Position numbers and translations under genes: made by a program
The notes under the pieces: model-generated
Database searches by the model: none
What the model saw: only the letters and a program-made list of their open reading frames with translations
What the model was told of the DNA's origin: nothing
Shown: in pieces, positions 25,669-60,729 of the stretch
Position numbering within the stretch: the first letter of the stretch is position 1
How the letters are laid out: every line of letters begins with the position of its first letter
Assembly (NCBI GenBank): GCA_008933995.1
Contig: WARS01000029.1
Coordinates: 18,631,511 to 18,695,510 of the forward strand
Reading direction: 5' to 3'
Length of the DNA: 64,000 nucleotides
Source of the DNA: Datnioides undecimradiatus
Lineage: Eukaryota; Chordata; Actinopteri; Lobotiformes; Datnioididae

Positions 25669-27920
25669 ATGGACCGGAGGAGGATGGATGCCAACAGAGA
25701 CCGCGTGGTCCATCGGGACACGCGCGCGAGAAAACTCACGGTGGTTGTCGCCTTGCAGAACCTGCTGGTGGCTACATGCCTTTTGGTCACATTTTACGTT
25801 TACTGGGACGCTTGCCCGGACAAACCGGTGAGTGAGCTGCGATTTGCAGACCTTTTTTGCTTTACTGTTGCATCATTTTATTGCAGCTCGTGTTCTGATA
25901 ATTTCATAGTCTTTGTCCAGCGGCAGGGAAGTTGCCAGGCTATCGCACATGCACAGCTGCTGTTGCTCTTGTTTTTTTTGTTTTTTTTTTTAATTCCAAG
26001 TAATTGAGCTTCAATTAAATTTCACAAATTTAGGGGTTTTTCTTACTTAAGACATGGTAGGATTGCTCTTTGAGCTTCTGTAAAGCTACATCTCAGTGTT
26101 GTGGCAATAATTAATCTGCTGGTGCCTTGAATTTGAAGGAAAGCATGCCAGAAGATCATGTGGGAGCACTTAAGCAAATCCACCCACATCACTTCCTCTG
26201 CTTGCGCACAATTTTGCTAAAGGTTTGCTTGAACCTAGCTTAGTTAACAGTTATCAATGTGCTATTGCTTCAGTGAGTATGAAAATCACCTGAAGGGATG
26301 CAAAAGATCATGTTTTTGGTTCGTCATACAAACTCAGATTTTGCCTATTTTTTACATATGGTATTGAAACTCCCCCTATTCAGTTCAGCTTTGTTTCATT
26401 CATACCGTCTGTGAAGAAATGTCTGAATCATGCTTGTCACAGGAGCCAAGAGACTGCAGGCTGCCTGGAAAAACAAATTGCAGCAATTTCAAATTAAAAA
26501 CACATTTTTGGTAAAATGAATAAACTGAAAACATAGATGGAAAGCTATTTTAAGTGCTCTTGTTAGTGTTACAACAGCTGTTACTCCCGACTGTTCTGAC
26601 TGTAAGTTTGACTGTAGTATTCAGCTCATATTTCGTGTTACAGAACAGCAGTCTGCTTTACCATTGTGACACAATCACATAGATATTACATGTTAACTTT
26701 GAACTGAACCTCTTGTCCCTGTGGGGAGGCTTTCTCATACAGACAAATTTGATCTTTGGTTCATCACTGAATTGGAGAGTTCATATTCAAACAGTGACTG
26801 ATGGGGAGTCGCATTAGACCTTTCACTTATGGTCTTCAAAACAGCTACTTTTGTTGTGGTTTTCACTCTTAATATTAAATTCAGAGTCATATTTAAGTAC
26901 ATTCTGGGTTTGTTTGACTATGATAGAGCAGAGCTACAGGTATGAGACTATTTAGAGGTCGATGTGGAGTTTCTCCAGATATCCTCTGACCTGGATGACT
27001 GTTTATCTGCGTGGTTACTGTGTGCTGATCATTTTAATGACTAACATTTGTTCTACATTTAGGCTCTGGTGTTTATCACTGCGAGGCTACTCTCACTACA
27101 GTTATTAATCAAACACGAAAGTGAGAATTTCCCTAGTTTCTGTCAGCCTGCCTATTTTCACACCATGTCACTCAGCCATGGTATCAAACAAACAAGCTCT
27201 GTGCTTCCCAGAGTTGAACATCAAGGAGAGATCTGCGTGACCTTTTAAAAGACACAGAGCGACATTTATAATGTCAGAGTCATAATGGGAGTGAGAACCA
27301 GCTAACATCAGGAAATCTGGAAGGTCATAAACAAAGCTACACTTTTCTAACTCTTGTTTGTGTCTTTGCTTTACAGCCTCTTGAAGATAACGTGCACATA
27401 CAGTTTGTGGCGATTGCAGGTGAGTAACCGCATACCTGAACACATACCTTTTACAGTTTCTCTTACCTTTTCTCATCAAGCCACACAAAAGTCTGTTGTT
27501 TTTCTCACTATCACTTTCCCCTCCAACTTTCACTCCCCAGACATCTCAGGCAACGAAACGCTGCAGTTTGACGACATTCACAGTAGCAATATGATGAGTC
27601 TGGTTGACAAGAGGAAAGACAAGATCTACGTGAACTGCACTGGACCCTATGTTTTGTACATGGATGTTTGTTACAAGAACCTCCTCGGAGAGACCTCGGA
27701 GACCACAGGGATGCTGCTGCTGCAGGTTGAGGGGAGTGAAACTCCAGTCAGCACTGTCAACCTGAATGCTTCACGAGAGGTCTGCAGGGGGCTCTACCGT
27801 ATAGCCTATCTCAGAGCAAAGGACCAGGCCAGTCTGCACTTGATATCCATGGCCGGGTTTAAAATTAAGAATGTGACTGTGGGTCTGAGCTATCTGCTGG
27901 GGAGACGGTGTGAGTACTGA
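25669..27920 (+). CDS. tnfsf4: TNF superfamily ligand, best match TNFSF4 (OX40L)-like, 193 aa
   Basis: Type II membrane cytokine of the TNF family; OX40L costimulates T cells through TNFRSF4. Exons 25669-25827, 27377-27419 and 27541-27920 total 582 nt. The basic N-terminus (about 22 aa) precedes a transmembrane segment at about 23-45 (LTVVVALQNLLVATCLLVTF). The ectodomain carries sequons NET (72) and NCT (99), and others at NAS and NVT. VNCTGPYVLYMDVCY resembles OX40L's INCDGFYLISLKGYF, and a cysteine three residues from the end (GRRCEY) parallels the terminal GEFCVL of human OX40L, suggesting the same disulfide. The ATG chosen is the first in frame after the CpG region. The ectodomain is short and diverged, so the exact orthology rests on these motifs and on position next to tnfsf18 and faslg; another TNF ligand is possible. 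Confidence 0.78.
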
Positions 27921-28456
27921 TCAGGGACGATCAACGCTCTCTGAAGACAAAGACCAGAACTGACATGGAGGAGAGAGGGAGCTCAGTGCTTACATTCATC
28001 TGCCGCTGTGAGAACAAACACACTAAGCAGGACTCACAACGATGGCACAACCTGTGCTGACAGACCCTTTCCTGTTGTGTTTATTACCTCGACAAAGGGA
28101 ACTAAGCTTCTGGTAGTTTGACTGATCTGATCAGATGATTGTGCACGGTCCTGGGCGAGAGAAAATCATGTGATTTTGGTGGCAGCAAGTCACAATTCTC
28201 ATTTTGTAGATATGAAATAGCTAAAATAAGCCAACCAAGAAGAACACCTACCCGTTAATGAGCAACAACCCGCTTGTTACAACTGATGATTATTTTCCTC
28301 ATCAGCTGATTAATCAGCTAATCCTTTGTAAAACATCAGATAACAGTGAAAATGCTCATCATCATTCCCTCAAACTTAAGGCGATTATCAGATTATTTTT
28401 TTATTTCCCATCACGATTAGTTTGACTGATACCCAAAACAATTTATAGAGGTGCCT

Positions 28457-28469
28457 TTTATTTATTTTT
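28457..28469 (+). promoter_or_regulatory. AU-rich element-like motif in the tnfsf4-like 3' UTR
   Basis: The sequence tttatttattttt contains overlapping ATTTA motifs. It lies in the probable 1.4-kb 3' UTR. Such motifs destabilise many cytokine mRNAs, but a single short one is weak evidence. Confidence 0.3.
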
Positions 28470-29324
28470 CCTCATGATCATCATTTTATAAGCACTCCCG
28501 CCGCAACGTGAGCTACTGTTTAGCAGTGACATTGGAGCCTAAAAATGGTTTACACATGAAATTATGAAGCTTTTGTGCTTTTGAGGGTTTTGCACTCCTC
28601 AGGTGCCTTTTAGTTTTTATATATTAATATATATAGCTAATATACCATTTCTAGTACATTATTTCACTATAACAATACCAAGTTCAGTACCAAATGAATG
28701 TAGTATTTTTATTGGTGCATTTATTCTCCTATGAAGCTCTCAGGAACCTTTTTGTGTGCTGTGAAGCTCAAACAGTGTGTGTCTTATGCGGATTACCAGT
28801 GTGGTGGTTTACCACAACAATTACATGTTCACCGTCACAGCCTCGAGATGATCTTTCTTTGGCGACGTGTTGAGGTACATGTCACTCATCTTACTAGAGA
28901 GCGACTGGTGTTCATGGAGCTAACCACACATCAGCAGGGTTTGATGGTGCAATCACACTGACACACAGATAGCTCAGAGACCAGAGAGGAAGCGAATGAA
29001 CGGGACATTTCCTCGATTTTGATTGTAGTTGCACTCATGGTGCACTTTGTAATGTTTATGTTTGTTTTTAATTGTGCCTATAGTAGTAGTAAGAATTAAG
29101 GGTCGATCGCTCCCCTTTAAAGTTCTATGCAGAAACTGTGTTAGTGAAGCTACGACATTTTACAATGAAAAAGCTGTATTTTAATAATAATTTAATAAGT
29201 CTACAGTTGGAGCACATTTTACTGTTGAGCTGTACCATCTGGTCCAAGCTTTAAACAATGTCATCTCCAGTGTAATTAAGGTTTAACTTGTTGATTTGAT
29301 GCTTTTGATCTGTACTATATCATA

Positions 29325-29330
29325 AATAAA
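29325..29330 (+). terminator. Candidate poly(A) signal of the tnfsf4-like gene
   Basis: AATAAA in the context tcataaataaaatatttaat, about 1.4 kb after the stop. It would make 27921-29345 the 3' UTR. Confidence 0.5.
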
Positions 29331-32069
29331 ATATTTAATATATCCTGTACACAGAGACTGTGTTTATAAAGCGGTATCCCAGGGGACGAAACATCAGTGA
29401 TTATTTAAAGCTACAGTTTGGGGGCTTTTGTCTCCCCCATCAGGGTGTGAGGGTAATTACATAAACACTGTCAACGTGCTTATGCCGGAGACTCCACTGT
29501 GACCGTAGTTGCTGTAGCCTATTCTCTGTAGCTTCAGTTGCTCTTTCAGCAAACTAATCATCATCATCGTTGATAAAACACACGACTTCCACATTTAAAG
29601 CCCAGGAGCAGCTTCTAGAAAGCATGTAGCTTTCTTATTGTAACGTATTCCAAGTGAAACCAGATAAGCAGGCGAAACTTTGATTTGAATGTTGAAAAGT
29701 GGGAGAGTCCTAACAAACATGTACAGTTACAGTGATTTGGAGTTGTATTATAACTCTGAGGCTGAAGACACGTCTTATTTTGTTTTACTGGACGAAAAAC
29801 ATGATTCGAATGAATGATATATGCACAGTATAACCACGGTTGTCTTAAAGGGGTTTTCATTTCATCTTAACTTTAAAAACTCTCTATTCTTTAAAGAAAC
29901 ATCCATTTACTTGTAAAAGTCCTGCACTGTAGCTTTAGATGTCTGCCAAATGAGCTGTCTCCCAAAAGAGCAAGCCCAGCTTCACATAAGCCTTAAATAA
30001 TAATGTGTTATGTGAATGGCACCGTATTAATCCATCTGAGTGATACACCATGGGGCTGCCATGTGTAAGCTTTGGCACCGATGACCTGTTGGAATGAAAC
30101 TTTAATTAAAAAAAAGTTTCTATTTGGCAATAAGCCTCGCCTCTTTGTTTCCTCTGTTCTCTCTCTCTATCTGTCTGTTTGTCTACTGTGGGAGTTAGCA
30201 GTTTCATCATCAGCATGAGCATCATTACCACCTGGCATGTTAAATATTGCTTAATCAAAAGTGAAAGTGAATTGCAGAATGCGGCCTGGCGCGTCCAACA
30301 TGACCTGACATGAGGAATCAGTCTGTTCACCACCGTCGCTGACCCCCGCTGAAGACACACTTCCACATTTTATAGTCTTGATAAATGGAGCATATCATCT
30401 CTGTTTGAAGATAAGAATCTGCAGTTTGGCTTTATTTCAGTTGGATCTTGTCATGTCTAATAATAGAAAAATAGGTTTTTAATGGCATATTTCCAGGGTT
30501 TCCAAAACCTACTGAAACTCCTTTTATGATCACAGGAAGTTTGGCACATTTAGTCTCGCAAATTAGTATCAGGAACAATGACTGAACGTTGGAGCATGTT
30601 TAAACTGGAACAGCAACATCCAGGGGTTTAGTTTTAGGCAAGAGTGAAAATGTGTGAAATGCAAGCAAGTCACGAAACATCTATTTATAACACAGACGGG
30701 TATGTACAGGTGTGGACAGATACGGCAGAGTAGTGCCGGTTAATATTGCATCAAATGCCTGGGCTCATGCTCATGCAACCAATTTTAACGTTGTACATGC
30801 TCACAAGTAAATCTGTCAACCAGAGCTCAAAGCAAAATGTGAAGTTTTAGTTAGTTCATGTAAAGTTTGCAGAAAGTCACAGCACAGACCTGTGTGATGT
30901 ACTGAAACTTCAGTGATATGCCAAGTTAATGTTATATCAAGACTCCAAGATAAGCAAACTCATAGCCAAGGACAAGGAAACACAACGTGGGCTCAAACTG
31001 CATGACTTTGCTCGTGGGCAAAATATATTATGAATATTGTTGACCAAGCAGATATGTCTGTGATCAAATATGTTGCACTGCAAGTTGATGTGACAAGCTT
31101 GCGCTTGAAATGTGAAATGTGATGGGACAGGATAACTGCTTCACACCGAACAAAGAGCAGCAATGTCTTCATTATAACTGGCAGGTCTATCAGTAAAAAG
31201 CAGAGCTGTTAGTATAAAGATTCACTTTAAGCACCAAGATGCTTCTAGCAGAAAATAATAAAAACGAAGACTTGAAATATCCTTCAAATATACAGGATCC
31301 ATAATTATCTTCTTCTTTTTTTAATAATCTGACTGTTTGCACAGCAAGTCACTCATTTTTCATCTTATAAAACAATATCCATTAATTTAAACTGAGAAAA
31401 CTTGGACAGCAAGCCAATCAGCACAAGGTATTTCTGTTATTTTGTCCATCCCTTTAAAGCAGTTAACGATGGCTCTGCACATGCTTGACCTTTGTCATTT
31501 AACGAGATTAGACACGTGCTTTCAGCCATGACACCCCAGCATCATAAAGTCTCACTCAGATAAATTATTACAGTGAGCTCAAAGTTTCAGCGGATCCCTC
31601 GGTTGTGGGAAACACATGCGGGTCTGAGACACAGGCTGTGGAAATACGCTGAAAAGAAATTGCGTGTGACGGTGTCTCCTGAACTGAATCAACGTTATCA
31701 ATAGCTTTATTTGTTTAAGTCCTCTATAATGTGGACAGTTTGAAAATAAATAAAATAAAAACCAGTGTTACCTAAGCTAACCTTAACTCCATGATGTTGT
31801 TACTGAGTTTTTAATGTTTGCAGCTAACCCGTCAAAGCAGCCCTATACAGTCGCTCGATAGCTACGTGCATTAATATCGTGCCAAAAAGCTGCATCTGAC
31901 ACACCTCAGCATCAATCCAGCATCATCAGTATAAAGCTAATCAGAGCTAGCGTTACAGTTAGGGATTGGAAAAATTTAGGAGAAACAAAAACTGTTCACA
32001 CCGAAGGGAAATACCCACAGTTCTGCAGAGTTTCACAGTTTATCTGCCACTGTGGTATCCGGAAAAGGG

Positions 32070-32111
32070 ACTGAACGCAGGAGCAAGTTTAAACTTGCTC
32101 CTGCGTTCAGT
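32070..32111. repeat. Perfect 42-bp palindrome with no spacer
   Basis: Two 21-bp arms are exact reverse complements and meet at the centre of aagtttaaactt (32085-32096). The left arm begins actgaacgcaggagc and the right arm ends gctcctgcgttcagt. The identity stops at 32069 and 32112. Confidence 0.97.
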
Positions 32112-32789
32112 GGAACGCGCCGCCGTGAAACACACCGCCGTCCAAGGATTTATTTGTGGCAGACGTGTGAAGTTGCAGCACAGCTGTCTTTTTACCGTCA
32201 TACTATAAAATAAAACCAGTTACTGAATGGTTTACATGCTTTTTCAAAACCATTTCAAATAAAGCCCTTGTTAACCAGCTTTAATGTTATTTGGTCAGTC
32301 AGAGTTGAAATCAGACAGTAAATTGGAGTCACTTATGTTACAGGTGTTTGTATGGACCTGTGTCATGTACGTCATGCACACGGTAGACCTATGTGTGGTC
32401 TTTCCTGATACCCACACTGAAGTTGTTTTGTGAGTACAGGCAGAAGAAAAGAGATTTTTCCCTTAAACCACATCCTCAAAGCAGTGGGTGAGTCATGAGT
32501 AGCTGCTCTGAGACATTAGAAAGTGTTGTTTGTCTGCTTAAGCCTTACTTATTCACTTTTTTCAAACATCACTTTTAACTTCATAAGAGAAAACATATTC
32601 AGGATGAGAACTAACATGTATGTTTGAGAAATATAATTTTATCCACGGTAGATAGGGAACAAAACATTAAGGTTAAGCATTCAATGCTATTGACTGACAG
32701 CTTAATGTTAGCTTCTGTGAGAGCACACTGTTCCCCAGAACTGCCAACCACAGCTCTGCTGGGTTCAAACTGGGACAGTGAGGGTTCAT

Positions 32790-32892
32790 GGTAAATCCCT
32801 GTGGGTTTGAGTAATAACTCAACTGTGGTTTCAGGTAAGCACCATTTTCAGCTAGGCTGGTTTCCCTACAGGTAGCCTGCAACATAAAAGAC
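32790..32892 (+). repeat. Diverged dispersed repeat, copy A
   Basis: Shares ccctgtgggtttgagt and, about 55 bp later, ggtttccctacaggtagcct with copy B at 34606-34692, in the same orientation. Copy A has a longer middle. The family is unknown. Confidence 0.5.
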
Positions 32893-34605
32893 AGTTAACC
32901 ACTGGTAGGACATCCATGTTCTGAGATCTGCTTTGTGGATGCTCACTGTTCATTGTGGTTGGCCATTTCAGCCCCTGCACCACTTTAGCACTTCCCGGAT
33001 CAAACCTTGCACTGACATCTGAGCAACACAGCCAACAGGCCATCAAAGCAACTGACTGTAACTGCCCAACACTGGCGATGCGCTTCTTGGCCTTTAAAGG
33101 AACACATGGTTACTGCAGATGGTAAGCCACGGTCACATTTGCAGCTTACTTTCAAGCAGATAAACACACAATTTACTTCACAGTTTTGTTTGTTTGAGAA
33201 AAGCTAAACAAAGACCCTGTGACGTTTTGGGGAGAAGATGATGGTGGGTGCTGGGTTGCACAACAAAAAGCAGATTTGCAGAAACTTGCAAATCCTGGAG
33301 GAAACAAAGAGAACTTGCTGGTCAGGCATAAGGCATATAGTACAGCGCTGTTGTCACAAGAGGATACATTTATTGAGCATGTTGTATGGAAGGAAAACAT
33401 CCAAAGCAGAGAGTACAACCTGCTAAATTTGGGCTCCATGAAAAATGGTGGAGAAGTAGTAAGCATCTTAACCAAACCTATTACCGCTGTGTTTCTTTTT
33501 ATCTGACGAGAATCTTTTAGGCCACATGACCACAGTAATTGCTTTAATATTATAGTACTTTCATTTGGTGAACTTGTGTCCGTTCATGGCAGCTGTGCCA
33601 GAACAGCAGACGACACCTTTATGATACTAGATTTACAGCCCACTCTCGGGTACTGAACATTGAACCTTATAGTGATACTGCTCTTGCGACCTGCAGCCTA
33701 CAAAGAGGAAGTGCAGAGGATTGCACATGAAAGCTAAAAGGTGCTCAGGGCGTGTAATGAAAGTGTAATTCATAATCACTCAGACATCTTAGACAGCAAT
33801 CCTCGTTTTTCATCATACAGTCTTGTTGTACTCAGTAAAATGATGTTGCTGGATCACATTTACAAATCTAAAACAAAATAAACTAATATTTCACGTCATG
33901 ATTTTATAACTTTCATGTCAAATTACTTAGTTGGACATGGTTTAAGCTCCATCTCCAACTAACTGCCTGAATCCTGACTAAGAATATCTTGTTTTGTATA
34001 TTTTACCCTCATAGCATTAACTCATGATGACATGTCAGCAGCCATGTCAAACGTTTGATCACGTTTTATGTTTGAAACTGGAGAACGTGTGCAAAATGCT
34101 TTGGGGCTGTAGGGACAATGATGTTTTGGGTTGACTGCTTGGCCCATGTGTTTTGTGTCCATAGTTTAATGTCTCCAGCTGGATTTAAAAGAGATTTTGA
34201 ACAGATATTCATGGTCCCCAGAGGGTGCATCTTACTGACTTTGTTGATTCCTTGGGTTTACTTCATCACTCACCGTACATCCTTCGACCTGTCACCCCAG
34301 CCCCTTCCGCCCGACCCTCATCTCACCCATCCTGCATCATCCCACTTCTCCTTCTTTTATATTACGCATTGAACTGATTCTAGTCCACAATTCTGATGCC
34401 ATGGTCTTTGTTTGTGAAACACAGGATGAAGAACCGTCAGAGGGTTCTGTGAAGAAATTAAAATCTTAGTAGAGTTGTATGTGGAACAGTGAACAGTGCA
34501 GCCACATGCAGAGATGTCTCATATACACGTGAAGGATCCATGCAGATGATTGAAGTGATGAAGCTTGTTTACTGTGTGATCAAAATGTGACCTTCAGCAA
34601 CGGTT

Positions 34606-34692
34606 CAGGGCAAACCCCTGTAAGTTTGAGTTTGAGTTAAGTGAAAGTTTTAGTAAGAACAGGTTTCCCTACAGGTAACCTCCAAACTAAAA
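34606..34692 (+). repeat. Diverged dispersed repeat, copy B
   Basis: Matches copy A at both ends: ccctgtaagtttgagt, then ggtttccctacaggtaacct followed by caaactaaaag. Confidence 0.5.
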
Positions 34693-35936
34693 GTAGACAC
34701 TGTACTGTTTTTTCATTTTTTTATCATTCTTTGTAACCCACCTTAGCTGAGTACTGTATATTTGACTCATTTTGAGAAAACGTATTTACATTATCTCAGA
34801 ATGAATCAGCAATGCAAAGATATTCTTCGTGAAATTTGAAAATAACTTTCACTGTGCAGGTGGTGCAATTTCTTAGCCACCTTCCTCCTTATAATTAACC
34901 CAAGGAAGACCCTTTTATTGATTATTAGGAATTATCCCTTGTGAACTGTATTTTCACAAGTCCTCCCTGTATTTTTGTCGAATGAGTTACACTATTTCCA
35001 AAGAGTTAAGTGCAGTTAGTTAGATAAAGCACATAAACATTAGATCTGCATTTGCCGACAGCAAAAATGTAATTCTATGGCTTTCCACAATGTGTTTTCC
35101 AAGGAAAATGACATCAGTGCCTTCAAAAGCAAGTTGTTTCATTTGCCTGATCATTATTTCCAATTAAAAATGATCTTCCGTCAATATTAAGGTACATGTA
35201 AACATAAATTCAGCATGTCAGCATATCCACAACTTGTTCAGAATCCAGTTTGGTGAAAGAAATTCTTAAAAATGCCACACCTCTGTGTTTTCATGCACTG
35301 TAACCACAGGCAAACCGTAACAGTACACCTCTCGCCTGGAGCAAGTTTCCTGCAACAGTATTGTAATTGACATGGAAGCCAAGCCCTGCATTTTTTTCCT
35401 TAGCGTAAAATTTCCTTAGCTTTTGCAACGTCAAAACAAAATATTAGTTGTTCAGTCAGTTTAGAGTAGGTTTTAATATTCAGTGCTGCAGCTGTGCTAC
35501 CCATTAAACTTGTTTTTGTTTTTCATTTAATGTTCCCCACCTCATTAATCTACAGCAAAAAATTAGTTGACAGCTACAGTTGCAACTCCCATGGAAATAT
35601 ATAAATAGACTGTGAAACTAGCAATGGATGACAGACAAAGACAAATGAAACGATAAAAGATAAGAAGTGTACAAGACTAGACTGTGTAAACAGATAAGAG
35701 TGTGTATGTTAGTGTGTGTGTGTGTGTTTCTCAGGTTAAAACGTGTCATCGGACTTGCAGACTTGCAAGCAGATAGGACCAAAGCCAAGACGGATGTAAA
35801 ACAACAACAGTGATGCAAGGGCTCTGTGAGCGTGGGCAGGACAGTAACAATGATGCAACAGCTGGCAGTTTCTCTCATGGAGGATTTTCCTGCTAAATGG
35901 GTCAAGGTAAACTGGTAGAGTGAAACACGGAGACTC

Positions 35937-35946
<10 letters not shown>

Positions 35947-35970
<24 letters not shown>
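35947..35970 (+). repeat. (GA)12 microsatellite
   Basis: A run of GA/AG dinucleotides flanked by imperfect gagaca units. The Ser-Leu open frame on the minus strand across it is a repeat artefact. Confidence 0.9.
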
Positions 35971-36684
35971 GCAGAGACAGAGGGAAGCTGTTTAAAACAT
36001 CACTTTCATTTTTCTTTGAATATGGTGTTTCAGTGTCGTGCCGCCCCTGCATTTGAGCGAAACAGGTTGCGAGAAAAAGAGGTGGGGGCATGTGAAGGCA
36101 CCATGTAGTTCAAATGCTGGCCAAATCATCATGAAGAGACTGAGCAGCCTCAGTTTTGCTGCAATGTGGATATTATTGCTTTATGTCTTGCACTTGTGGG
36201 AAGAGTGAAAAAGCTGCAAATCATAACACGCACCAGAGATGACAATGCGGTGGCCTCAGGTGTTCATTCATGCTCGCCTGTGTGATTACTGCTCTGATTC
36301 AACAGACATGGAAATATGAAGGAAAAATTAATAAATCTGCGCTTCTCTGAGCGCGTGCAGCACGTACGCAGACACTGAGTGACAGCATCAATCCATCGTA
36401 CCAGTAGACGAAAGACAGCTCAGCAGTTTTAAAGCAATGTTTACAGATTTCTCATTAAATGGCCACTCAACAATGTCAGTGTTTATTATTCACGGTAATG
36501 TTGACGCTCACGAACAACAGCTACTGCATGAGCACAACTACGTGTCCAAAAATTCCAGTTCCAGCAAGAGACAGTGTTTTTCTGATCCTCATCTCAGCTC
36601 TGGCACAGAACCAAATAAAGCGCAGCATGATCAAATAATAAAGGCACTCTAAGTAATCAAGCAGTTTTGTTGCGTGGGTGTAGA

Positions 36685-36693
36685 GGGATTCCC
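36685..36693 (+). promoter_or_regulatory. NF-kB-like site 1 upstream of the tnfsf18-like gene
   Basis: GGGATTCCC, 160 bp upstream of the ATG. It matches a kB half-site pair, and the same nonamer occurs again at 36747. Confidence 0.4.
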
Positions 36694-36746
36694 TCAGTCC
36701 TTTCTGTTTGCCTTTTATTGTACATGGGCGGTAGTTAACTGAGCGT

Positions 36747-36755
36747 GGGATTCCC
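36747..36755 (+). promoter_or_regulatory. NF-kB-like site 2 upstream of the tnfsf18-like gene
   Basis: A second exact GGGATTCCC, 62 bp after site 1 and about 45 bp upstream of the TATA-like box. This is a favourable position for a proximal element. Confidence 0.45.
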
Positions 36756-36791
36756 ACTTTTTTCATTTTGAGTGGGTGGGATGGAATAGGC

Positions 36792-36799
36792 TATATTAA
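36792..36799 (+). promoter_or_regulatory. TATA-like box of the tnfsf18-like gene
   Basis: TATATTAA ends 46 bp before the ATG. A start about 25-30 bp downstream (near 36821, cttcagtac) would leave a 5' UTR of only about 25 nt. Confidence 0.5.
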
Positions 36800-36844: not shown

Positions 36845-37560
36845 ATGGAGAGACAACAGGCACGACAGGAAGATACACTGATTGAGGTTAAGATGGACAG
36901 ACTGGAAGTCAATCACCGACCCAGAGGTTCACCTGCCAACCGCTGTGGCTGCTCCAAGTGTGCGGGCACTGTGGCAGCAATGATGGGATTGGTGATTGCG
37001 GCTCTGCTGGCGGGCTTCATAGTGTATTTTTTCACGTTCCTGCCGTCACACAACCAGGTGAGAAACACCTCAGAGCGTTAACAGAAAGTTACCTGAGCAA
37101 AAACAAGCTCTGATGTCTTTTCATGACTGTTATCAATCTGTCTGTTTACAGGATGTCTCCGCTGTTAAAGCACAAGTCAACATAACCCACAAAATAAAAA
37201 GTAAGTATTACTTATATTTCAGTTGCTTCCAACAATCCAATCCGATATCTTGATGTGCTTATGGAATAGCAATGATTTTTCTTCACAGAGACTGATGGAC
37301 AGGAACGATATGACCTCTTTACTGTGGATAAAGCTGCAAGCTACTTAATCTATGGTTGGGTGAAATTCACACGTGTCACCGGTGAAGAGGTCGTTCTGAT
37401 GCAAACTCTGAACGGAAGGAACGTAACCATCCAAAAGAAGATCATCAACCACACAGAGATCTTCTTTTCTGGTAAGGTCAAACTGGCCAACGGCATCACA
37501 TTAAGCATGTACTTCATCTCCTCCTGTACGGACGGTTCGTTCCATCTCTATGAACTCTGA
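36845..37560 (+). CDS. tnfsf18: TNF superfamily ligand, best match TNFSF18 (GITRL)-like, 177 aa
   Basis: Type II membrane cytokine; GITRL costimulates T cells through TNFRSF18. Exons 36845-37057, 37152-37200 and 37289-37560 total 534 nt with consistent GT-AG junctions (phase 0, then phase 1). A 40-residue cytoplasmic part ends in a Cys-rich juxtamembrane motif RCGCSKC, a possible palmitoylation site. The transmembrane segment is at about 41-66 (GTVAAMMGLVIAALLAGFIV). The ectodomain is short: YDLFTVDKAASYLIYGWVKF lines up with the human GITRL stretch ending NGLYLIYGQV. Later features are LMQTLNGRNVT, IFFSGKVKLANGITLSMYF and a C-terminal SFHLYEL. Sequons: NIT, NVT, NHT. Position between the tnfsf4-like gene and faslg matches human gene order. 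TNF ligands diverge fast, so the paralogue name is likely but not certain. Confidence 0.8.
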
Positions 37561-38397
37561 GCTTTGGCTTGAATCAGACACGTAAGAAACTCCAACTGCT
37601 GTGATGCATGTTACTGAAGTGAGCGGTCAAAACCTGCTGCTATTGATGTTATCCATGTTCCACGTGCATGCACTTATCACAAGGTTGTTTCATGAAAAGC
37701 GAGTCTGTGTTGTGTCTCTAGTAACACTGGGCGTGGTCGCTCCAAAGTCTTAGATCTGACAAGAAAGTGATGTGACCTAACATGACAGCCAAAACCTCAG
37801 TACTGGAGGAAATGCCCACGTTCATGATTGCTACACCAAATTAAAGCTGAAAGTCTCATAAGCTGTGTGTGTAATTTGAAATATCTGTTTTGACAAGAAG
37901 TCGCGTAGTCACATAGATAGCTCATAACTAAATCACACTTACGCTTTGCTTTCTTGTCACTCACCACGCCACACAAGTAGTGTTATTCACACTTTGGCAG
38001 AAACGGTTTTCTGTCTGTCATTTCCATCTCTCTGATTGACTACTCTTACCTGCGTAGATGACCAGCACGATGGGAATGTTTCATTTCCATTTTCACGAGC
38101 CGGCCATGTCACGTTTTTTAGGTTGGTTAAAGAGAGCTGGAAGGTTTTCTCACTGTAAAATAATCCTGAAGAAAGTCAAATGAAAACTGTTAATGTGTCA
38201 CAAGATTGTGTGAATGAAAGATTTGCTTTTAATTTCATTTAGTTGTGTCGTGACTTTACTGGCAGCTGACTAATGTAGCCATGTTAGTGTTCAGTGGAGG
38301 TCCAGTATTGTGTTATTGTCAAATCAGTAGTCTATATGTTGTACACATCCTAACATCCTTGTAAACATATTTGTATTTTTATTTGCCAAATACTGTA

Positions 38398-41311: not shown

Positions 41312-41321
<10 letters not shown>

Positions 41322-48110: not shown

Positions 48111-50489
48111 GCTCGCGTAAATGCAACTCGTGCACCCCTGAGATTCAGCAAACGCGGTGAATGCGTCTTTAGCGTAAAACATTTTCAAAGCAGGTTTCTT
48201 TAGTCTACATAGTTTATCTTCGCGCGTCCTCACCAAAAGGCAAAACAAGGACCCGAAAGCCAAAATGAAACGCTGTAGCACTACTGGAGGCCAAAATCTA
48301 TAATTACACTAAAGATTTACTGGTTTGGGTACATGTTCTTGTTAATTGATCTTATAAGTCTCGAGTTTAGGGAGTCTGGGACTGTTTTCAAAAACAAGTT
48401 GATCCTTATTTCATAGAAAAGAGAATGCTTTAGATCGGGGGAGCCCCACGGCTTCTGCTATACAGGGGCTTCTTCATACCACCTCCCACCTGTCTGTTAA
48501 CCAAAACTGGTAGGTTTCAATAAAATATAGAAGATTTGGTCTATGAAAGCTTTTTGATGTCGACAGAAGAAAAAGTACCTTAGTTTGCTTCAGTTTTAGA
48601 TCACAAGTGATTTAGTCAAACTCTAAATTAAGAGGAAGGACTTTGTAACAACTGATTCTCATACAGAGTTGGTTTTAACACACACTTTAAAGTAGGATCA
48701 GCAATTTATGATTTAGTTAAGCTTTAATGTCAAAGATTACAAAAAATGCTTCATGTGACATTTGAAAAATGAAAGGGTGCTTCCTGCCAGATTAATTATA
48801 TGGGTCAGAGAAACTGTCTATAAAACAGTTTTCACATCATAATGTAGGTGACGGCTGGTGGCATCGCAAAATGTTCCTTTGAGGTGATAAAAGAAAAACC
48901 CAGTGACCTGTATTGTAGTTTTAAGTAAACAGCTAGTTTTGCTATAATATGAAATATTCTTGCTTATAAACAACAAAAAAACTCATCATCCCCCATCATC
49001 AAATGTCAAATCAAATGTTGCTGAACTCAGATGGGCAAAAAAACACAAACACAGAGATGTCTCATTTAAAATAAGAACAACTATTTAACTGTTAAATGTG
49101 GCAGAAAATTGAGAGAGATGAGATTGAAAAAACATGTTTACTGGGCCATTAACGTTAGCAAATGTTGACTAATGCCAGTCTGACAGTCAGCACAATTAAA
49201 CATGTGGATCCCATTATTATTTCACAGCTACACAACCAGCAGAAAGTGGCTACACTCCGCAAAACGCTGCATAGTTGGGTCATGATGAGTGACAGTGTGG
49301 CCCATTCAAAATAAGGAGAGTCACTGAAATCCTTGACTGATTATTAGATGTGTTATTTAGGCTAAAAGGCCCAAAATGGACTTTTTTCACATTGGACTGT
49401 GTGACCATGTCAGCCAAGACAGTGTGACTTTCAGGCAGCATGAGCAAAGCAAGACTCTGAAACTGAAGCAGATGAATGAAATACAGCCATCATTAGTTAT
49501 ATCATTATATATAAATATCCACACATCATTATCCCAAAAAATATTATTTCACTGTGGAAGCAGCTGTCATCTCATTGTTGAGCTGCCCAGCTTTAAAATT
49601 TACAGATTTGATATAAACAAGCACTTAAAACCCCCCTGATGCAGTTAGCAGTTAGCCAGTTTAGCATTTAGAAGATGAAAAAGCCAGATATCGTCATTAG
49701 GCGTTGGTGGAAACTACTAAATATTAGACTTTTGCTATGTGGCCAGACATACAACTCTGAATGATGTGTAAGCGCGTGTTAGCTAACAGCAATATCATCT
49801 TGAAAGGAGATATTTCCCTGCTGTATTCACATCCTTTTTTGTGACCTTAAAGTCACTTTGAAACACTTGGGAGCTGTGGTCTCTAATCTTAAGTAAAAGT
49901 GCCAGACCACATTCATTATAAACCCCGTGGTGTCTTGTTGCACTCCCAGATACTTAATTTACACTTGAGTAGCAGCCTCCTCTTCCTGTTGTGTGTCAAA
50001 TGGCAGCACATTTTGTATATTTACGTGATCAGGAATGCAAGCGTGTGTGGCGTGGTCTGGTTGTCGGTAGTAATTACCCACAGTGTGAAGTGATGACATG
50101 CTAATAGAAATTATATGAGTTTAAAAAAAAAAAAAAACTATGACATGAAATCCTGTTGGAGGTTTGCATCTTGCTGTGCAAAGAGCTTGACCAAAAAGAA
50201 AAAAACTGCTTAGTTATTTGCAGAAATGATTGTTTATATAACCAAATGATCTGCAACCCACATTTCTGGTAAATTCATACTTTCCATTTCATTCACACAG
50301 GGACAAGATGGGCACATTTCTTGGACAATACACCCACACTTTTTGGTACTGTGCTCCCAAAACAGCAAGTGTGATGGCTGTGGGGAGTGGAGAGCAATGT
50401 GGAACATGTTTCTGCTGCTGGTTGAGTCATTATGAACCCGTTTATGCATCAGAGAGGACAGTGTCAGAGGGACACTGAAGGAGGGAGAG

Positions 50490-50720
50490 AGTGAGAGAGA
50501 GAGAGAGAGAGAGACCTAGATAAACATCTCGCACCTTTCTATGGAAAATCAAAAAGTGTCGTGTGTGCAAGTGGCAGTAGTGAGATGAAAGTGCTGAGAG
50601 GATGCTACCATAAGCATCGAAATTGAGAGAGAAAGAAATAAAGAAAGGGAGAGAGGGGGGAGAGAGACACAGACAGAGAGAGAAACAAACAGACACAGAG
50701 AGAGAGAGAGAGATAAGATT
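50490..50720 (+). repeat. GA-rich low-complexity region
   Basis: Clusters of gagaga (about 50490-50512 and 50697-50713), with gggagagaggg and acagacagag units between. Minus-strand Ser/Leu-rich frames across it are artefacts. Confidence 0.8.
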
Positions 50721-52684
50721 TCCCAATATATGGACAGGGGAGTCCCCCCAGGGTATATCCGTCCCACCTCCACACTGGGCGATAGGCTTTATCTCTCGTC
50801 ATGAGTGGGCTTTTGTCAGAGCTGTTTGTCTACCGCTGGCCGTGTTTATCGTCGCTTTCCTTAAACAGACTCGCACAGCTTCAAGATGGCACGGGGATTC
50901 CCCCTGCAGTTCTCTGCCAGTATCTGTGAACTGCTCCCGCTGCATTAAGGCTCACAGACATCCTATAAGCATTTGTGAGCAATTTATAGAGATTTAATAC
51001 ATACTGTACAATTCCAGGAAGCACTCTGCTGACTAAAATATTGAATAGTGCTGGACCCCCCCCCCCTTTTAGTGTTGTTAGTGGTACGCTGTGATAAAAC
51101 AAGGGACATTCCCTGCAACAATTGGATGCGGCTCTGTGCCTTTTATTTGGGAAACGGTTGTGGTCTCATTTTCACCCAAGCTTAACTCGGTCTATGAGTG
51201 TTGCCTTGATAATAAATGAGGTAGACTTTGAAGGAATCACACGAGATCGCACGACACTGAAACAATAGGGGTGCGGTGACCCCTGTGTGCAAGATCTGCA
51301 ACTGCACAAGATCAAAATACCATTAAATCCTTCTCACACCTCACCACATACGTCACCATGAGCAACGTGGCTGACTTTCTGCACAGTGGTATTCACACTT
51401 CGTGACAGTACATACAACTCTGTAGTCTTTTCAGTCACACTGACGGCCTTTTTTATCCGCTGTTAGCTTGATTGGCATCTTCCCTTCCAGGTACACATCC
51501 AGTTCCTCTTTAAACTCAACATAAAATCAACTGCTGAGGTTTTTCCTCATCAATTTTCCACATTTGTGTCCATACCAATGAGGCAGCAGTGGCAGCCAGA
51601 TCTCTACACATGAAGTATGCATGCTCCTAAACGAGACGTACAGCATTGCAGATGTTTAGCTCAATCATCTAGTCAAGTTGCCATTCAAAATATATGTAAT
51701 GAGAACTTTGAATGAATTTAATTAAAGACACTAATTATTAACTACATTTTTGAGAAATGTAATTTCTGTGATTCCGGTGATTAATAGAAACTTTGTCATG
51801 TGGTGCAATAACAACCAGACCCGTCTTTCCAGCACCAGCCAGAAATAAAAGATTTTCTAAAAACTTTGAATTTAAAAACTTTTTTCTTTAAAAGGGAATT
51901 TGCTGGTAGTCTTGGGGAAAGTGGAGAGCCCACTGAAGCCTCTGGAAGCTTAGTGACTTGAACCAATCAGCTCCTGGGGACAATCTACACAGTCAGTGCG
52001 CTATCATTAGCCAAACTCACCTGAAGCCATCATACACTCACAGACCACAACAGAGAGAGAAACAAACATGCACATGAAATTTATTTGTATACAGTGACAC
52101 TTAAATAACAAAAAAGTTACTGAGTTATGGTCAAAAGTATGTTTAGTGAGGTCACGGTGACCTTTGACCTTTGACTACCAAAGTCAAATCACTTCATCGT
52201 TGAGTCCAAGTCGCAAATTTGAAGAAATACCTTTAAGAAATCTTTATTTTGAGGGGCAGAGGCAAAAATATACATCAAGAAACGACCAAAACCAGTTTAC
52301 ATTCAGATCAGATCCGCTGTCACACTGAACTATACAGAGCCTCAGTTGCACATTCTGTGTTTTACTGTTTGACCAGTAGTAACACTATCAATCAAGTGTT
52401 TGGTCTCTGAACAACAGGCGTTCACTTTTTCTTAAAATGTTTCATCTGGGATTTCTCCTGTGTTTTCAGATGTGCTTTGACCGAAACTTTTGTTTTGATT
52501 ATTAGTATTACGTCTACCACTTTCAAGTTCACTAAATAGCAATCTGAAACCCTAGCCCTCACCCTTCGCACATGCTCTCACACCCAACTTGTGTGGCCGG
52601 GCTTTTTCTTGGGAACACTGAGTGAACAGTTCTATATTTGTGGTTTGCGAGCTATTCTTCTGTCTTTTGTGTCTTTGCGGGGGG

Positions 52685-54251
52685 TGATTAAAGCATGTGC
52701 AGGCCAACTAGCAGGGATCCTCACCGAACTCTTCAACCCCTCCGTGACACATGCCACCGTCCCCGCATGTCTGAAGGCCTCCGCCATCGTCCCCATCCCC
52801 AAAAAACCTGTCATAAACAGCCTGAATGATTACAGACCCATCGCCCTGACGTCTGTAATCATGAAGTGCTTGGAGTGATCAGTGTCCCAGCACATCAGAG
52901 ACTGCCTCCCTCCCTCCCTTGACCCCCACCAGTTTGCTTACAGGGCAAACCGGTCTACTGAGGATGCCATCGCCCTCACACTCCAGACAGCGCTGAGCCA
53001 CCTGGAGAACAAGAAGAGCTATGTGAGGATGCTCTTCGTGGACTACAGCTCAGCGTTTAACACAATCATCCCGGATATTCTCTTCAACAAACTGCTTGAA
53101 CTAAAGATCCTTCTCCCCAACCTGCAACTGGATTAAAAACTTTCTGTCGAGTCGCCCACAGTCTGTGAGACTCGGCCCCCACCACTCCTCCACACTCAGC
53201 ACTGGTTCCGCTCAAGGCTACGTTCTGAGCCCCCTACTGTACACCCTGTACACTTACGACTGCTCTCCAACCCACCCAACCAACCGCATTATAAAATATG
53301 TGGATGACACCGCGGTGGTTGGACTCATCTGTGACGGGGACGAGGCAGCGTACAGGGCCGAGGTGGAGAAACTGTCGCTCTGGTGCTGAGACAACAACCT
53401 GACCCTGAATGTCCACAAAACAAAAGAACTCATCATGGACTTCAGGAAGAACAGACAGGACCACACCCCCCTCCTCATAAATGGAGAACAGGTGGAAACT
53501 CACCACCTTCAGGTTTCTGGGCACGAACATCTCTGCAGACCACTCCTGCACCTACAACATCAAGGCCCTGGTTAAGAAGGCTCAGCAGCGGCTACACTTC
53601 CTGCGTGTCCTCAGGAAGAACAACCTGGACACGAAGCTGCTGCTGCTGGCCTTCTATCACTCCTCTGTGGAGAGCGTACTGACGTACTGTCTGGGTGTGT
53701 GGTACGCAGGCTCCACAGCGAGGACATGAAGGCGGTGCAGGGGGTCATAAACACTGCCCAAAAAATCATCGGCTACCCTCTGCCCAGCCTGGAAAACATC
53801 TCCACATCCTGCTGCCTAAGGAAAACCAAGGCCATCACAGGCAACCCCTCACACCCTGCCCACCCCCTGTTTGATCGGTTGCCCTCTGGGAGACGCTACA
53901 GATCAAGAAAGTCCCACACCAGCAGACTGACAGACAGCTTCTTCCCCTGGGCCATACGCTCATATTTATTTATATATATATATTTACCTTCATTGCACTA
54001 CTTCACTTCACAGTTTACACTATATATGTATACAGTTACATATCTCAGTTGTGCACTTTTTTCTTTTTTCCAATGTATATTATACCCTCACCTTTCATGT
54101 CTCTGTTTTAAGAGAACACCATTTATCCCTTGTTGTTTTTGCTTCTGCTATTGCTCGTTTCTGTCCTTTCTTTTAAATAATGTCAATTTCGTTGTACCCC
54201 CCCATGTGCAATGACAATAAAGACTATTCTATTCTATTCTGTTCTATTCTA
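52685..54251 (+). mobile_element. 5'-truncated, degenerate L2-like LINE retrotransposon
   Basis: Encodes a non-LTR reverse transcriptase broken into several frames by frameshifts, with a TGA at 52876-52878. Visible blocks in order: [34 protein letters not shown]; motif [14 protein letters not shown]; motif B VLSPLLYTLYT; motif C KYVDDTAVVG; then the C-terminal NTAQKIIGYPLPSLENI and HPLFDRLPSGRRYRSRK. An AATAAAG at 54215 and an ATTCT pentamer tail (about 54222-54251) form the 3' end, typical of L2/CR1-type fish elements. The N-terminal endonuclease is absent, as expected for 5' truncation. Confidence 0.85.
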
Positions 54252-54826
54252 TTGGACGTCTTCACCTGACTCTGAACATGCGCACAGACTGACTCACAGA
54301 TTCACTCTAAGATTAGACATAACTATTATGTATATGATGATTATTGCTATCATTAAATTGAGATCTGAAGCAGAGCTACAACTGAACACTGAAAGGAGTT
54401 CATGTACAGATCACGTTATGAACTTCCTTTTGTAGGGATACTGTTTGTTAAATTAACAGTTTCACATTCAGTTATTTAAAATTTACCCTGAGTTAAAAAT
54501 GATGTTCTGTTTGTTCCACATATGTGATAAAAACTATAAATCAACGATAAAAACTGTTCACGTAAATGGATAATTTCTTATTTTGTTTGGTGTTTGTGTC
54601 ATATACGGACATGCAGCGTTGATTGTTGGGTTTAAATGTTGTGACGAGACGATACAGTTACAGTAATACAGTTCAGGCACAAAGTTCGTCATGACTGAGA
54701 ATCTAAAATATAAATGTCACACTAGTTGGTGGTGTGCTATGTAAATGCACATTTGGTGTAATCCTGCCTCTGTGATTTGTCCGAGCGATGCGCGAGGAGG
54801 TCTGATCAGCATAGATCATACTTTGA

Positions 54827-54840
54827 CGCCCTCTGGCGGC
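54827..54840 (-). promoter_or_regulatory. CTCF-like motif
   Basis: The + strand reads CGCCCTCTGGCGGC; the minus strand GCCGCCAGAGGGCG closely fits the CTCF core CCASYAGRGGGC. It lies between the tnfsf18-like gene and faslg, about 0.6 kb beyond the LINE end. Confidence 0.45.
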
Positions 54841-57800
54841 TTTAAGATGAACTGCACGTGGCACGTTTGAGAGAGTTCAGACTACATTCAGGTAGAGTTA
54901 CCATTTGTAAACCATTTTAAAAAGCTAAGTGTAACATTGTTTTAAATGTTTATTAACATTAGAACTGATGGTTTTCTTGCAGTGTCAGTAGACCTACATT
55001 AAGTCTGGTGACCTTCTGTGGTTTCCATTGTAGCGTCTCAGCTCCTTGTTTAGGAGAAGTGAAAAACATTATTAAACCTCAACATGATATGAATGACGGG
55101 TGAATAATGGCACATGAGTTAAGTTCAAAGAGTTTGTGCACATAAATATATATAACAAGAACTTTTTGGATTGTTTTACTTTTCCCCACACCCACAGGTT
55201 TGGAATCGGCACAGGTGGCTGACATACTGACATTTCAGCTCGTAGAAAGCCCTTATTACCAATAGATGTTTGCAAAACTGAATTTCTTTTACATGACAGA
55301 CAAAATGCTGTAAATGTAAGACATTACCAGTCAGTTTGGTCGATTGCTTTGACTAAGACATGCGCTAAATATGTGTCATCATAGTAAAGAAGCAAATTGC
55401 AGGAGGAATGATTGGTTTGTCAGATAAAATGAATTTTTAGTGGGATCCACCTTTGCTTTCATTCTGTTGTTGCCTTGCAGCTTTATGAAATGCATTTCAT
55501 TAAATATTTGACAGATGGCGCTAAAGACAAGGTAAAAATGTTACTCCGCGCTTTATTTTAAGTTTGATCTCAGCCACTTTAGCTTCACAATGGCAGAAGA
55601 TGAGTCATCTGCAACTCTTCTCACTGGGGGAGTCTTCCACACATTTGTCTGCGGATACTTGCACGTTACACCCATAAGTGATTGCTGAACATCTCATCTC
55701 AAGGCACTTTCAGATGTGCACCGATCTGCTGCTATGACAGCACCCACATTAATGGTTTCAGTCTTTCCACCAGATGTTTGAACCTGGAAACAAAAGTCTT
55801 TAAGGACCTTCATCATTAATTCATGCACAGTGGCGTTGTCATTATCGTGGGGCAATGCAAAGTACCTTCCCTGAACTGTTGCTGCAACTTTGGTAGAAAA
55901 TCAGTGTCTAAACTGTCAACTTATGATGCACATCCCCCTTAAAGACCAAGAAGATCTATTTTCTCAATCACCTTCTTACTATGATTGATTGGATACTGTA
56001 GGAATAAGCTATTACATTTAAGTTTAATATAAATTTTGTATCACAGGTTTTTTCCAAATTTTTTTTATCTGAGCTTTTCTCACTGGTTTTGTGTGGGCAG
56101 AGCTCAGTTGGAAAAACGTTGTCATGTACTTCAGTGCACAAAGCAGAGTTTGAGTGATGTTTGAATCAGAAACTGATAACCGTTGGTGGTCTGCTCGGTC
56201 CCTGTCAATTAAGTTTGATAAAACTATGCGTGTGTTGTCTCCATGAATCAAAAAAAACAACAACAACTATAGCTTCTGATTGTTGAGATAAAGAATTTAT
56301 TGAATGCGCACATGCTCATGGATACGTTGAAATACTTGAATACTTTGTTTGTTGTAAAGTACAAATTCCCTCTTTATTCCATCACAGTTTTGTTTGAACA
56401 CTGGCACAGAGAAGGGTCCAGGATCTCTTGTACTTGGAGGGAATATCATTTTTTGTTTTAAACACGTGATTTTGGAAATGTAGCATGATTGTGAAAGTGT
56501 TTCAATGTAAGCTCTGTCGTCTTGATCAATAACGTCTCCTTCTGTTCTAAATTTGATGTTGTTGTTGATTTATAAGTACATCCTTTTTGGCTTGATTTTA
56601 AGTGAGGTGTGTGTTTGGACTCCTTAACATGTACACTGTGTGCTGTGCTGTCGGCCTGCAAAGCATGTAGCCTATGGAACGACACAGACCTAAGCTGGCA
56701 GCAAGTTAACATGTCAAAATGTTAAAATGTTAACATGTTATTGTTTGAAGACAGAATGTAAACGCTCCCTTTGAATTTGTGTTTATGCATGTAACAAAAT
56801 TGAACATTTCTTATATGAAGTGTAGCGCAGGGTTTCTCTGGGAGCCCCATTGCATCATTACATTGCATGAGCTCTGGCATGACAGAGGTGAGCGCAATCA
56901 TGATGTTCAGATGCCAATTGATTCGCACAGTGTTAGATTTTCCATTCAGTGGTTAACAAAATAGCACGTATCTTGCAAGACTGATCAGTCAATGAGTCGA
57001 ACAACCAGATAAGGCTAACCACCTCTATGTACCATCTGGTATTATCTCATTTTAAAATCAAGCAGGAAATAGTCAGTCTTACGACATTTGTTTACTCTGG
57101 CTTTCAAATATAACGATGCCTGTCTGTCTGACAGGGTCATATGGGCCTTTCATCTCATCATAATCGCACAAATAGGTCACTATAGATCCATGTTTGGCTG
57201 GGAGGGCCTTCACACACTAAAATGTAACCCCCCCGTCATTTCTTCTTTCTCTTTATTTCATCTGTATTTTTCTACATTACACTGTCTTTCTCCACCTGAG
57301 ACTGTCACTTAAAATAGTTGTTTCTGTGGAAAGTTTCTGCCTTTCACATTATTGTTTTCACCGTGTAGGAGCTGGAGCAGGAAGTACATTTAATACGGAG
57401 GATGTCGGATTAAACGGAGGTCAGCAGGTGAAAGATGTGTCTTCCCTCGTCTAACCAACACAACGTAGGAGCCCAACCGCTTACACCTGCCTATAAGTGA
57501 GGTGAATTTATTTATCGAGTGGCTATTTGTGTCTTCTCAAAGGTCCCCTCTTTGTGAAACATCAGTTAGACTTTCAGTGTGTGTAAACAGGATCATAAAA
57601 TCGTACAAAAAGTCCTTCCTGATACAAAACCCAAATAACATTTATTGACTTTGTGCAATTTGATGTAAATATCAGAGAATATGATCTCAAATCTTTGTCT
57701 GTGATATCACATCCTTACAAATCATCTCTGCTGGATTTCAACAAACAGCGTGACAAGTCATTCTCTTTTTAGTCAGAAAGAGAGATTTCAGGCAGGGTAT

Positions 57801-58957
57801 CACTTTGAAGCATTGGTTTTGTGATGAGTAAAAAGTGATTATTGGAACAAGTCAAAACCACAAGTCTGTTAAAGACAGACTGAGCTTTTGTATTCATGGT
57901 ACAACAACCTCAAATATGTGGTTCTTCTGAGCCACGGACACCTCAGACGATCTGCTCCTTTCAGTGGGCTATGTTAAACTGACATAGCTAACAACTAATA
58001 ACTAACAAACCATTGAACTGAATGGCTCATTTGCTATCTGAAATGCGGTGCCCTGCACTGGTTTTCCCCGCTAACAGAAAAGTAAATGACATCAACTATT
58101 TGAACAAACGTGCTACCGGGAAACAGTGTGCAGCTTGTGATTTAACTGAAAAAAAGCTGAAACAAGCTGGTTCACGTTTAATAGTTATAGTAGTAGTTTA
58201 TTCACCTCTGGTCGTGAGGCATAGACAGCATAAATTAAAAGTATACCACGTGGATAAAAAGAAACGTAAGCTCTTCATGAAAAAAAAAAACCCCAAAACC
58301 AACCTGCACACAAATGAGACCCTCATGATTCTCACACAGGAAGGAAGCGCACGTCAAAACTGCTACCGTTTTGTCCCCTCTTCTCATCTATGCCCAGCCT
58401 GCACGTCTTCTTGAACTCGGCTAACATAGATGTTTGTGGTGTGCTGAACGAGAACAGCGCAATGAGGGTGTTAAATTGCAAAAATTGCACAGCAAAAAGC
58501 ACAACCGCACTGCATTGTGGTCTAGAAGTTCAATTCTAAACTTTCAATGTATCACCCCCCCCCTTAACACTATTGAGGATTTAATGGCATCTTTCACGGT
58601 ACAAACTCTTTGTTTTATTTTCCAGGACCAGACCAAGTTTGAGTCGGTGTCTTTATCTAAATACTTTCCAGTGGTCACGGGCAAAACTCATGTGGGTGAC
58701 TCACTTCATCATTGCCTCCACTTTTAGAATTCATTTACAAAAACACTTCCCTGCTTCACCAAATTGAAAATCAACTTAAATTATTTCTTTATTTACTTCA
58801 AAACAACCATCATATAGCACTTTACCAGTTTCATGAGCACACATTTAGACATCATCGGTGTCAGATTCACATTAAAATAAATATTTTAAACATGCTACTA
58901 TATAACTATATCGGCACATTAGTGTTAACTGAGGCAACTTTCATAAAAGGCACAATA

Positions 58958-58963
58958 TTTATT
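58958..58963 (-). terminator. faslg: Candidate poly(A) signal of faslg
   Basis: The + strand TTTATT reads AATAAA on the minus strand, about 145 nt after the faslg stop. Confidence 0.4.
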
Positions 58964-59106
58964 AATTGCTTCAATTCATTAAGCCACCAATTTTGAAACT
59001 GGTAATGAAGAGAATAGATGATTTTCTCTAGCCTGTAACATTGGAGACCATTTCATATTATGTGATTCATATGTCGCAGGAAAAATCACCATGCACAAAA
59101 TAAACT

Positions 59107-60729
59107 TCAGATCTTATAGAGACCAAAGAAGTTGGCATAATGTGCATGACTGAGATAACTGGGGTGCGATACATTCACATAAACTCTGTCGGATTTCTGC
59201 AGCTGCAGGGCGGAGCCGAGGTAACTCTCCGTGGTCCACGAGTGTCCCGGTGGCTGAGCGCAGAAACCTGCTCTGTGGGCCTCCATCAATTTCACAGGTA
59301 AGGATTTGCCTGCTCTTCTCAAAAACATAGAGTGAACAAATGCAGATGCAGGGGAGCAGTCCCTAAAGATCAACTCCACTCGGGAGTAAACGTGGTAGAG
59401 CCCGGTGTCGTTGACTTGCAGAGCACCATCCTCAGACAGGTAAGCCACACCACCAGATGTGAAAGCTCGGCCCACCAGTGGCTCCCATCGCAAGGTTTTG
59501 GTAAATCTTTCCGTTTCAATTCGCCCTGCAAGACAAAAAACTATGTCACTTCTTTCAGTCTGATGTGGTATAAAGAAACACACAATGCAGGATTTTGATG
59601 ATGATGTTACCCATCACGTGAGCTGCAGGTCTGTCTTTGTCTTCCTTTATCTCAGGTTCATAGAAACCTAAAACACAATCAGACTAAAAGTCACATCAAC
59701 TCCTTTTCTCCTTTATTGGGAATATCTTTTTTTTATTGGGAGTAATTCATGCGTTGTGCGATTGACACGTACCAATTTGCTTCTCCGCAGCGCTAAACTC
59801 CGTGACAGGTTGCACCTTTAGAGAGACAAAAGAGAAACAGAGGAATCTCAACACCACATCACACAGATGCTTGCACCTCAGTGCATGTGAGAGGCCTCTC
59901 AAAGCACAAGTCTGAGAGAGGAAATCCTGTCTCACTGGACCGGTGACCACAGATGGAACAATGAAGTACTTGGTTTGCATTTTTAAATGTCAGAGCAGAG
60001 CTGAGGTATGTGAACTCTCCCAATGGTGGCAGTTATTTTGTGTTTTGTTTTTAAAAGTGAATTAATTATTAATCTTTGCAGTGCTGTTAACTTTCCAGCT
60101 CCCACTTTACACCTTGCCACCAACCTCCAGCAAAGGTGAGAGAAGTCACACCTTTTAATTTGCAGCTTTGCCCCCATTCAAACCATAAAATAAGTAATAT
60201 TCTCCATCAAGAGTAATTGTGAATATTGTCCATCCATCACCATTACCCCATTATTTCTTCATGACTTAGTTTTCAGTCTTCATTGAGTAACTGTCTCTAT
60301 TAATCTGCACACTGTTGTCACATTATTTCAGCCTCAAAACTACTTATTTCCTCACACTGCTGCAGTCATCATCAGCTTATTAATTCAGTAAAAGTTCAAT
60401 CAGTTTCTGCTCTCTCACATCCATCACATCCATCACATCCAGAGGTTCCTTACCTGTCTCAAATCTCTCAGTTCTTTCTGCATGTTGTAAATCTGGTAGG
60501 CTTCAAACCCCAGGGCTGCAAACACAAGCATGAACAGCATCAGCACGACAAGAGCCGTGCCGCTGCTCACTCCCATACAGCCCTGGCTCTTCTCCCGTCT
60601 CCTCGTGCTGACCTGGGCAGGTGGGAAGGACCAGCATGGAATAAGACTTGGTTGGTGGTCAGGTTGCTGTCGACCTCCTCCATCCACGAGGAACATCTGT
60701 GGGAACGGGTAGCTCTGGTCACAGCTCAT
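59107..60729 (-). CDS. faslg: Fas ligand (TNFSF6), complete, 264 aa
   Basis: FasL is a type II membrane TNF ligand that trimerises and triggers apoptosis through Fas on target cells. Minus-strand exons: 60729-60454, 59815-59773, 59667-59611, 59525-59107, totalling 795 nt with consistent phases. The N-terminus begins MSCDQSYPFPQMFLVD, with a short Pro-containing cytoplasmic part (PSLIPCWSFPPAQ) and basic STRRREK before a transmembrane segment at about 57-78. The TNF homology domain starts near residue 121 (AAHVMGRIETERF). It includes the conserved aromatic LRWEP, NDTGLYHVYSRVEL, paired cysteines Cys182 and Cys214, SYLGSALQL, RVYVNVSHP and the terminal FFGLYKI. ATG choice: the first Met matching the family; an upstream in-frame Met at 60831 would add residues with no family resemblance. 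Human FasL has a longer proline-rich tail, shortened here. Confidence 0.95.

Follow-up and report, generated by a model that had tools for sequence, protein, structure and literature searches.

In mammals, OX40L (TNFSF4) and GITRL (TNFSF18) drive T-cell costimulation. Their genes stand in tandem with the gene for Fas ligand (TNFSF6/FASL) on human chromosome 1 (PMC7674686). This account concerns a window of 64,000 nucleotides (contig WARS01000029.1), the whole stretch of DNA that was analysed, which carries three genes of this kind, here called A, B and C. They probably make up the FASLG cluster of a fish, as gene content and compact introns suggest, and probably of a ray-finned one; in it C is Fas ligand, A most likely the TNFSF4 orthologue and B a divergent ligand in the TNFSF18 position.

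The locus is relevant to a dispute that is not yet settled, because a survey of the family is without TNFSF4 in zebrafish, fugu and gar, and TNFSF18 is described as tetrapod-only in the sequel to that survey. The survey places TNFSF4 in lampreys and cartilaginous fish but not in Danio, Takifugu, Lepisosteus or Latimeria, and gives TNFSF18 for human only (PMC7674686). The sequel (Marin 2025, PMC11762692) confines bona fide TNFSF18 to some tetrapods. It judges TNFSF-F7 (lungfish, coelacanth) and TNFSF-F8 (cartilaginous fish), both adjacent to TNFSF4/TNFSF6, to be independent TNFSF4 duplicates, and it contests the GITRL that Redmond 2022 assigned to shark. Another paper has it that the existence of true OX40L homologues in fish cannot be stated (PMC6001812). 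A regulated gene in a salmon study is labelled tnfsf18 (PMC9921345), so that the label is in use for at least one teleost. Among the literature matches listed, whose scope leaves most subscription journals outside, there is no paper devoted to fish OX40L or GITRL. A teleost paper considered as a source for tnfsf4 (PMC6628085) was set aside, the word being present merely in a reference title.

The three genes encode type II membrane proteins and are complete, with intact frames, within 25669-60729: A (+, 25669-27920, 193 amino acids), B (+, 36845-37560, 177 amino acids) and C, or FASLG (-, 60729-59107, 264 amino acids). Both ends of that interval are start codons, the ATG of gene A at 25669 and that of FASLG at 60729. 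All introns are GT-AG with consistent phases, and a common architecture runs through the three genes: intron 1 in phase 0, intron 2 in phase 1, and a second exon of 43 (A), 49 (B) or 43 (FASLG) nucleotides. The sequence of gene C identifies it with certainty as Fas ligand (FASLG, TNFSF6); it matches Pfam TNF at E 2.1e-19 and, among solved structures, finds human FasL first (4e-20) and CD40L as the next family (6.6e-11).

Read in reverse, the locus begins with FASLG, followed by B and then by A, the last two lying on the strand opposite FASLG. This agrees with the human arrangement, FASLG-TNFSF18-TNFSF4 with the latter two opposite FASLG. The sequence-only reading of this DNA had claimed the same order and relative strands as in the human cluster, and with A and B on the plus strand and FASLG on the minus strand that claim holds. 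Gene B accordingly lies where TNFSF18 would be looked for, between a TNFSF4-like gene and FASLG and on the strand opposite to the latter. By simple arithmetic, two FASLG neighbours placed at random would give a cluster with FASLG outermost and both neighbours on the other strand in about 1/6 of cases, and in about 1/12 if the two names must also fall right; the arrangement is therefore supporting rather than decisive.

Are A and B TNF ligands at all? Neither gene matches Pfam TNF, gene B failing to do so though human GITRL reaches 1.2e-4, and this has to be counted against taking them as such; nor does either find a match among solved ligand structures in the Protein Data Bank (PDB). Controls put these negatives in proportion. 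Human OX40L itself reaches only a sub-threshold E of 0.16 in Pfam TNF, and mouse OX40L 0.05; as a PDB query human OX40L finds OX40L as its sole TNF ligand, and human GITRL finds GITRL and, weakly, EDA. Because of these controls, a missing match carries little weight in the case of A and somewhat more in that of B.

Both genes were also compared with profiles. A family hidden Markov model (HMM) was made from 11 other ligand sequences, OX40L and GITRL excluded, and a second profile from all 15 rows of the panel (nine of its sequences unconfirmed), with 2000 shuffles and 133 decoys as nulls. On the family HMM gene A scores 10.5 bits, a value that none of the 2000 shuffles attains, and gene B 6.5 bits, attained by six; on the same scale human OX40L and GITRL score 14.6 and 17.7 bits, and genuine OX40L/GITRL rows 14.0-26.9. 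Ranked with the 133 decoys, A comes first on either profile, and B first on the 11-sequence profile and second on the 15-row profile, one decoy standing higher. What the profile matches in each is the strand C motif, KIYVNCTGPYVLYMDVCY in A and TVDKAASYLIYGWVKF in B. Folds predicted from single sequences had low confidence.

The empty database searches, the low 6.5 bits of gene B and the decoy above it would also fit an open frame that arose by chance, or a membrane protein of some other family, named by pattern recognition. That A or B is such a thing is improbable, given spliced frames with canonical sites and a transmembrane helix, the shuffle counts just cited, and the position of both genes beside FASLG. 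Gene B, compact at 716 bp, also has a TATA-like tatattaa at 36792-36799, 53 bases upstream of its ATG, and a polyA-like ATTAAA at 37840, downstream. The analysis shows how the genes are built, how their products sit in the membrane and that their sequences are of the TNF family, firmly for C, well for A and moderately for B. Gene A is thus predicted, well above chance, and gene B moderately, to be a TNF ligand, a type II membrane protein with a TNF homology domain. As for the claim that three TNF ligands lie here, FASLG is secure, the OX40L-like character of A is partly supported, and B as GITRL has little beyond its position.

The likeliest identity of gene A is that of a fish TNFSF4 orthologue. 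On an OX40L HMM it scores 7.6 bits, which one of 2000 shuffles reaches, and on a GITRL HMM 0.2. In the ligand phylogeny that had been proposed as a check, A groups with OX40L in all three trees that hold it (support 79/85, 89/92 and 82/81; bootstrap 79-89%). The grouping is never significant, and placements of A with GITRL, RANKL or FasL are not rejected. The cysteines point the same way. Gene A carries one cysteine, Cys100, in the stretch VNCTGPY and another, Cys191, three residues from its C-terminus; at the matching places human OX40L carries Cys97, in INCDGFY, and Cys181, likewise three residues from the C-terminus. When the four ectodomain cysteines of A are placed at random, both places are hit exactly in 0.06% of draws and within one residue in 0.56%. 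Cys97 and Cys181 of human OX40L presumably form a disulfide; no confirming paper was found among the literature matches listed.

Gene B is a harder case. It can be named TNFSF18 by position alone, its sequence not favouring GITRL over other TNF ligands, and it appears to be a real small ligand of the TNF family, highly divergent, that occupies the position of TNFSF18 (GITRL). That it is the true TNFSF18 orthologue, in which case TNFSF18 would predate the split between ray-finned and lobe-finned fishes and be no tetrapod invention, is a tentative proposal to which we give clearly less than an even chance. Place and strand between A and FASLG suit it, as does the small ectodomain (106 amino acids, in exons 2-3), that of GITRL, at about 120 amino acids, being described as the smallest of the family (PMC7925557). 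The GITRL HMM gives B 4.2 bits (43 of 2000 shuffles do as well) vs -0.8 for OX40L, and a clade of B with GITRL is not rejected in any of three trees (p of the approximately unbiased test, p-AU, 0.172, 0.247 and 0.328). In zebrafish, moreover, tnfrsf18 is named among T/NK cluster genes (PMC10948150).

Several observations pull away from GITRL. The ectodomain cysteine pair of human GITRL (EPCMAKF, PPCVNK) is absent from B, whose single cysteine in exons 2-3 is Cys167, although to treat the pair as family-defining is an assumption. The pairwise Z of B with GITRL is -1.0, the lowest of 15 rows (the highest is with A, at 2.4), and the BAFF/APRIL (7.2 bits) and FASL-group (5.3 bits) profiles outscore that of GITRL. 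In the two trees without A, B pairs with CD40L (80/77 and 78/73). In the tree with A it falls into an unsupported group with CD40L, RANKL and GITRL, CD40L being nearest by path. For B the phylogenetic check therefore ends nearest CD40L, not significantly, and on the longest branch of the trees; other clades not rejected are those with OX40L (p-AU 0.219, 0.133 and 0.323), A (0.265), BAFF/APRIL (0.275) and FasL (0.0735). A GITRL identity would also contradict the restriction of bona fide TNFSF18 to tetrapods (Marin 2025, PMC11762692).

Gene B may instead have arisen in the fish lineage by tandem duplication of a TNFSF4-type gene and have come to the place of TNFSF18 by convergence, an origin already proposed for TNFSF-F7 and TNFSF-F8. 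We put this a little short of an even chance: A and B have little sequence in common, and the -0.8 bits of B on the OX40L profile count against such an origin. The earlier appeal to synteny as evidence of orthology is accordingly fair for A and too strong for B, whose sequence does not favour GITRL and whose neighbourhood, beside TNFSF4/TNFSF6, is one in which extra ligands have been described from lungfish, coelacanth and cartilaginous fish.

Table 1. Exons of the three ligand genes, in window positions
Feature	Position	Strand	Remarks
Gene A exon 1: cytoplasmic tail and transmembrane helix	25669..25827	+	Start codon ATG; donor gtgagt; hydropathy highest (2.1) at residue 23
Gene A exon 2 (43 nucleotides): probably first beta strand of TNF domain	27377..27419	+	Acceptor tttacag, donor gtgagt
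Gene A exon 3: remaining TNF domain, Cys100 and Cys191 at OX40L cysteine places, stop	27541..27920	+	
Gene B exon 1: cytoplasmic tail and transmembrane helix	36845..37057	+	
Gene B exon 2 (49 nucleotides)	37152..37200	+	Acceptor tttacag, donor gtaagt
Gene B exon 3: short TNF domain, YLIYGWVKF strand C motif, stop	37289..37560	+	
FASLG exon 1: cytoplasmic tail and transmembrane helix	60454..60729	-	Gene model
FASLG exon 2 (43 nucleotides)	59773..59815	-	Gene model
FASLG exon 3 (57 nucleotides)	59611..59667	-	Gene model
FASLG exon 4: TNF domain and stop	59107..59525	-	Pfam TNF 2.1e-19; best PDB match human FasL 4e-20

To the left of gene A lie exons of a FAM20-family kinase gene, at 16622-21834 (+) and perhaps from 12644 onwards, with Pfam Fam20C matches at 16622-17026, 19193-19405 and 21550-21834; we take it to be FAM20B. 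About 3.8 kb separate the end of its open frame from gene A, whereas human FAM20B is several megabases from TNFSF4. Within the region of the FAM20 gene there is a minisatellite of 32-base units (about 10.5 copies, 19533-19872). Between gene B and FASLG are the remains of a reverse transcriptase, 52879-53386 (+), broken across frames (Pfam RVT_1, E 2.2e-8 at 52879-53133 and 6.1e-6 at 53105-53386, below curated cut-off). Upstream of FASLG and on the same strand, an open frame of 226 amino acids ending in SSSDEECDA (62729-63409, -) has no Pfam match and may be the final exon of an adjacent gene.

If A and B are what they seem, they would sit in the membrane as type II ligands, oligomerise by way of their TNF domains and act as costimulators on the TNF receptors of T cells, probably from antigen-presenting cells, by analogy with mammals; FasL would trigger apoptosis of Fas-bearing cells through Fas. 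Should B be ray-finned GITRL and A ray-finned OX40L, a combination that we regard as doubtful, the three-gene cluster would predate the ray-finned/lobe-finned split and TNFSF18 would be no tetrapod invention. The absences reported for zebrafish, fugu and gar would then be lineage losses or detection failures. With a gene in each of the two places, this clean fish locus offers defined genes with which the TNFSF4/TNFSF18 dispute might be settled.

Set beside the known systems, gene C is the same gene as FASLG (TNFSF6), with no notable difference. Gene A resembles mammalian TNFSF4 (OX40L, CD252) in two cysteines at matching places, as its tree neighbour, and in place and strand relative to FASLG; it differs in having two extra ectodomain cysteines, and its identity with mouse OX40L is 19% over 102 columns. 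Gene B, like tetrapod TNFSF18 (GITRL), is placed between TNFSF4 and FASLG, and its ectodomain is similarly small; it differs from TNFSF18 in lacking significant sequence affinity and the GITRL cysteines. With TNFSF-F7 of lungfish and coelacanth and TNFSF-F8 of cartilaginous fish it has in common that these are extra ligand genes beside TNFSF4/TNFSF6; in a comparison by published description, they are slow evolving, whereas B has the longest branch in the trees here.
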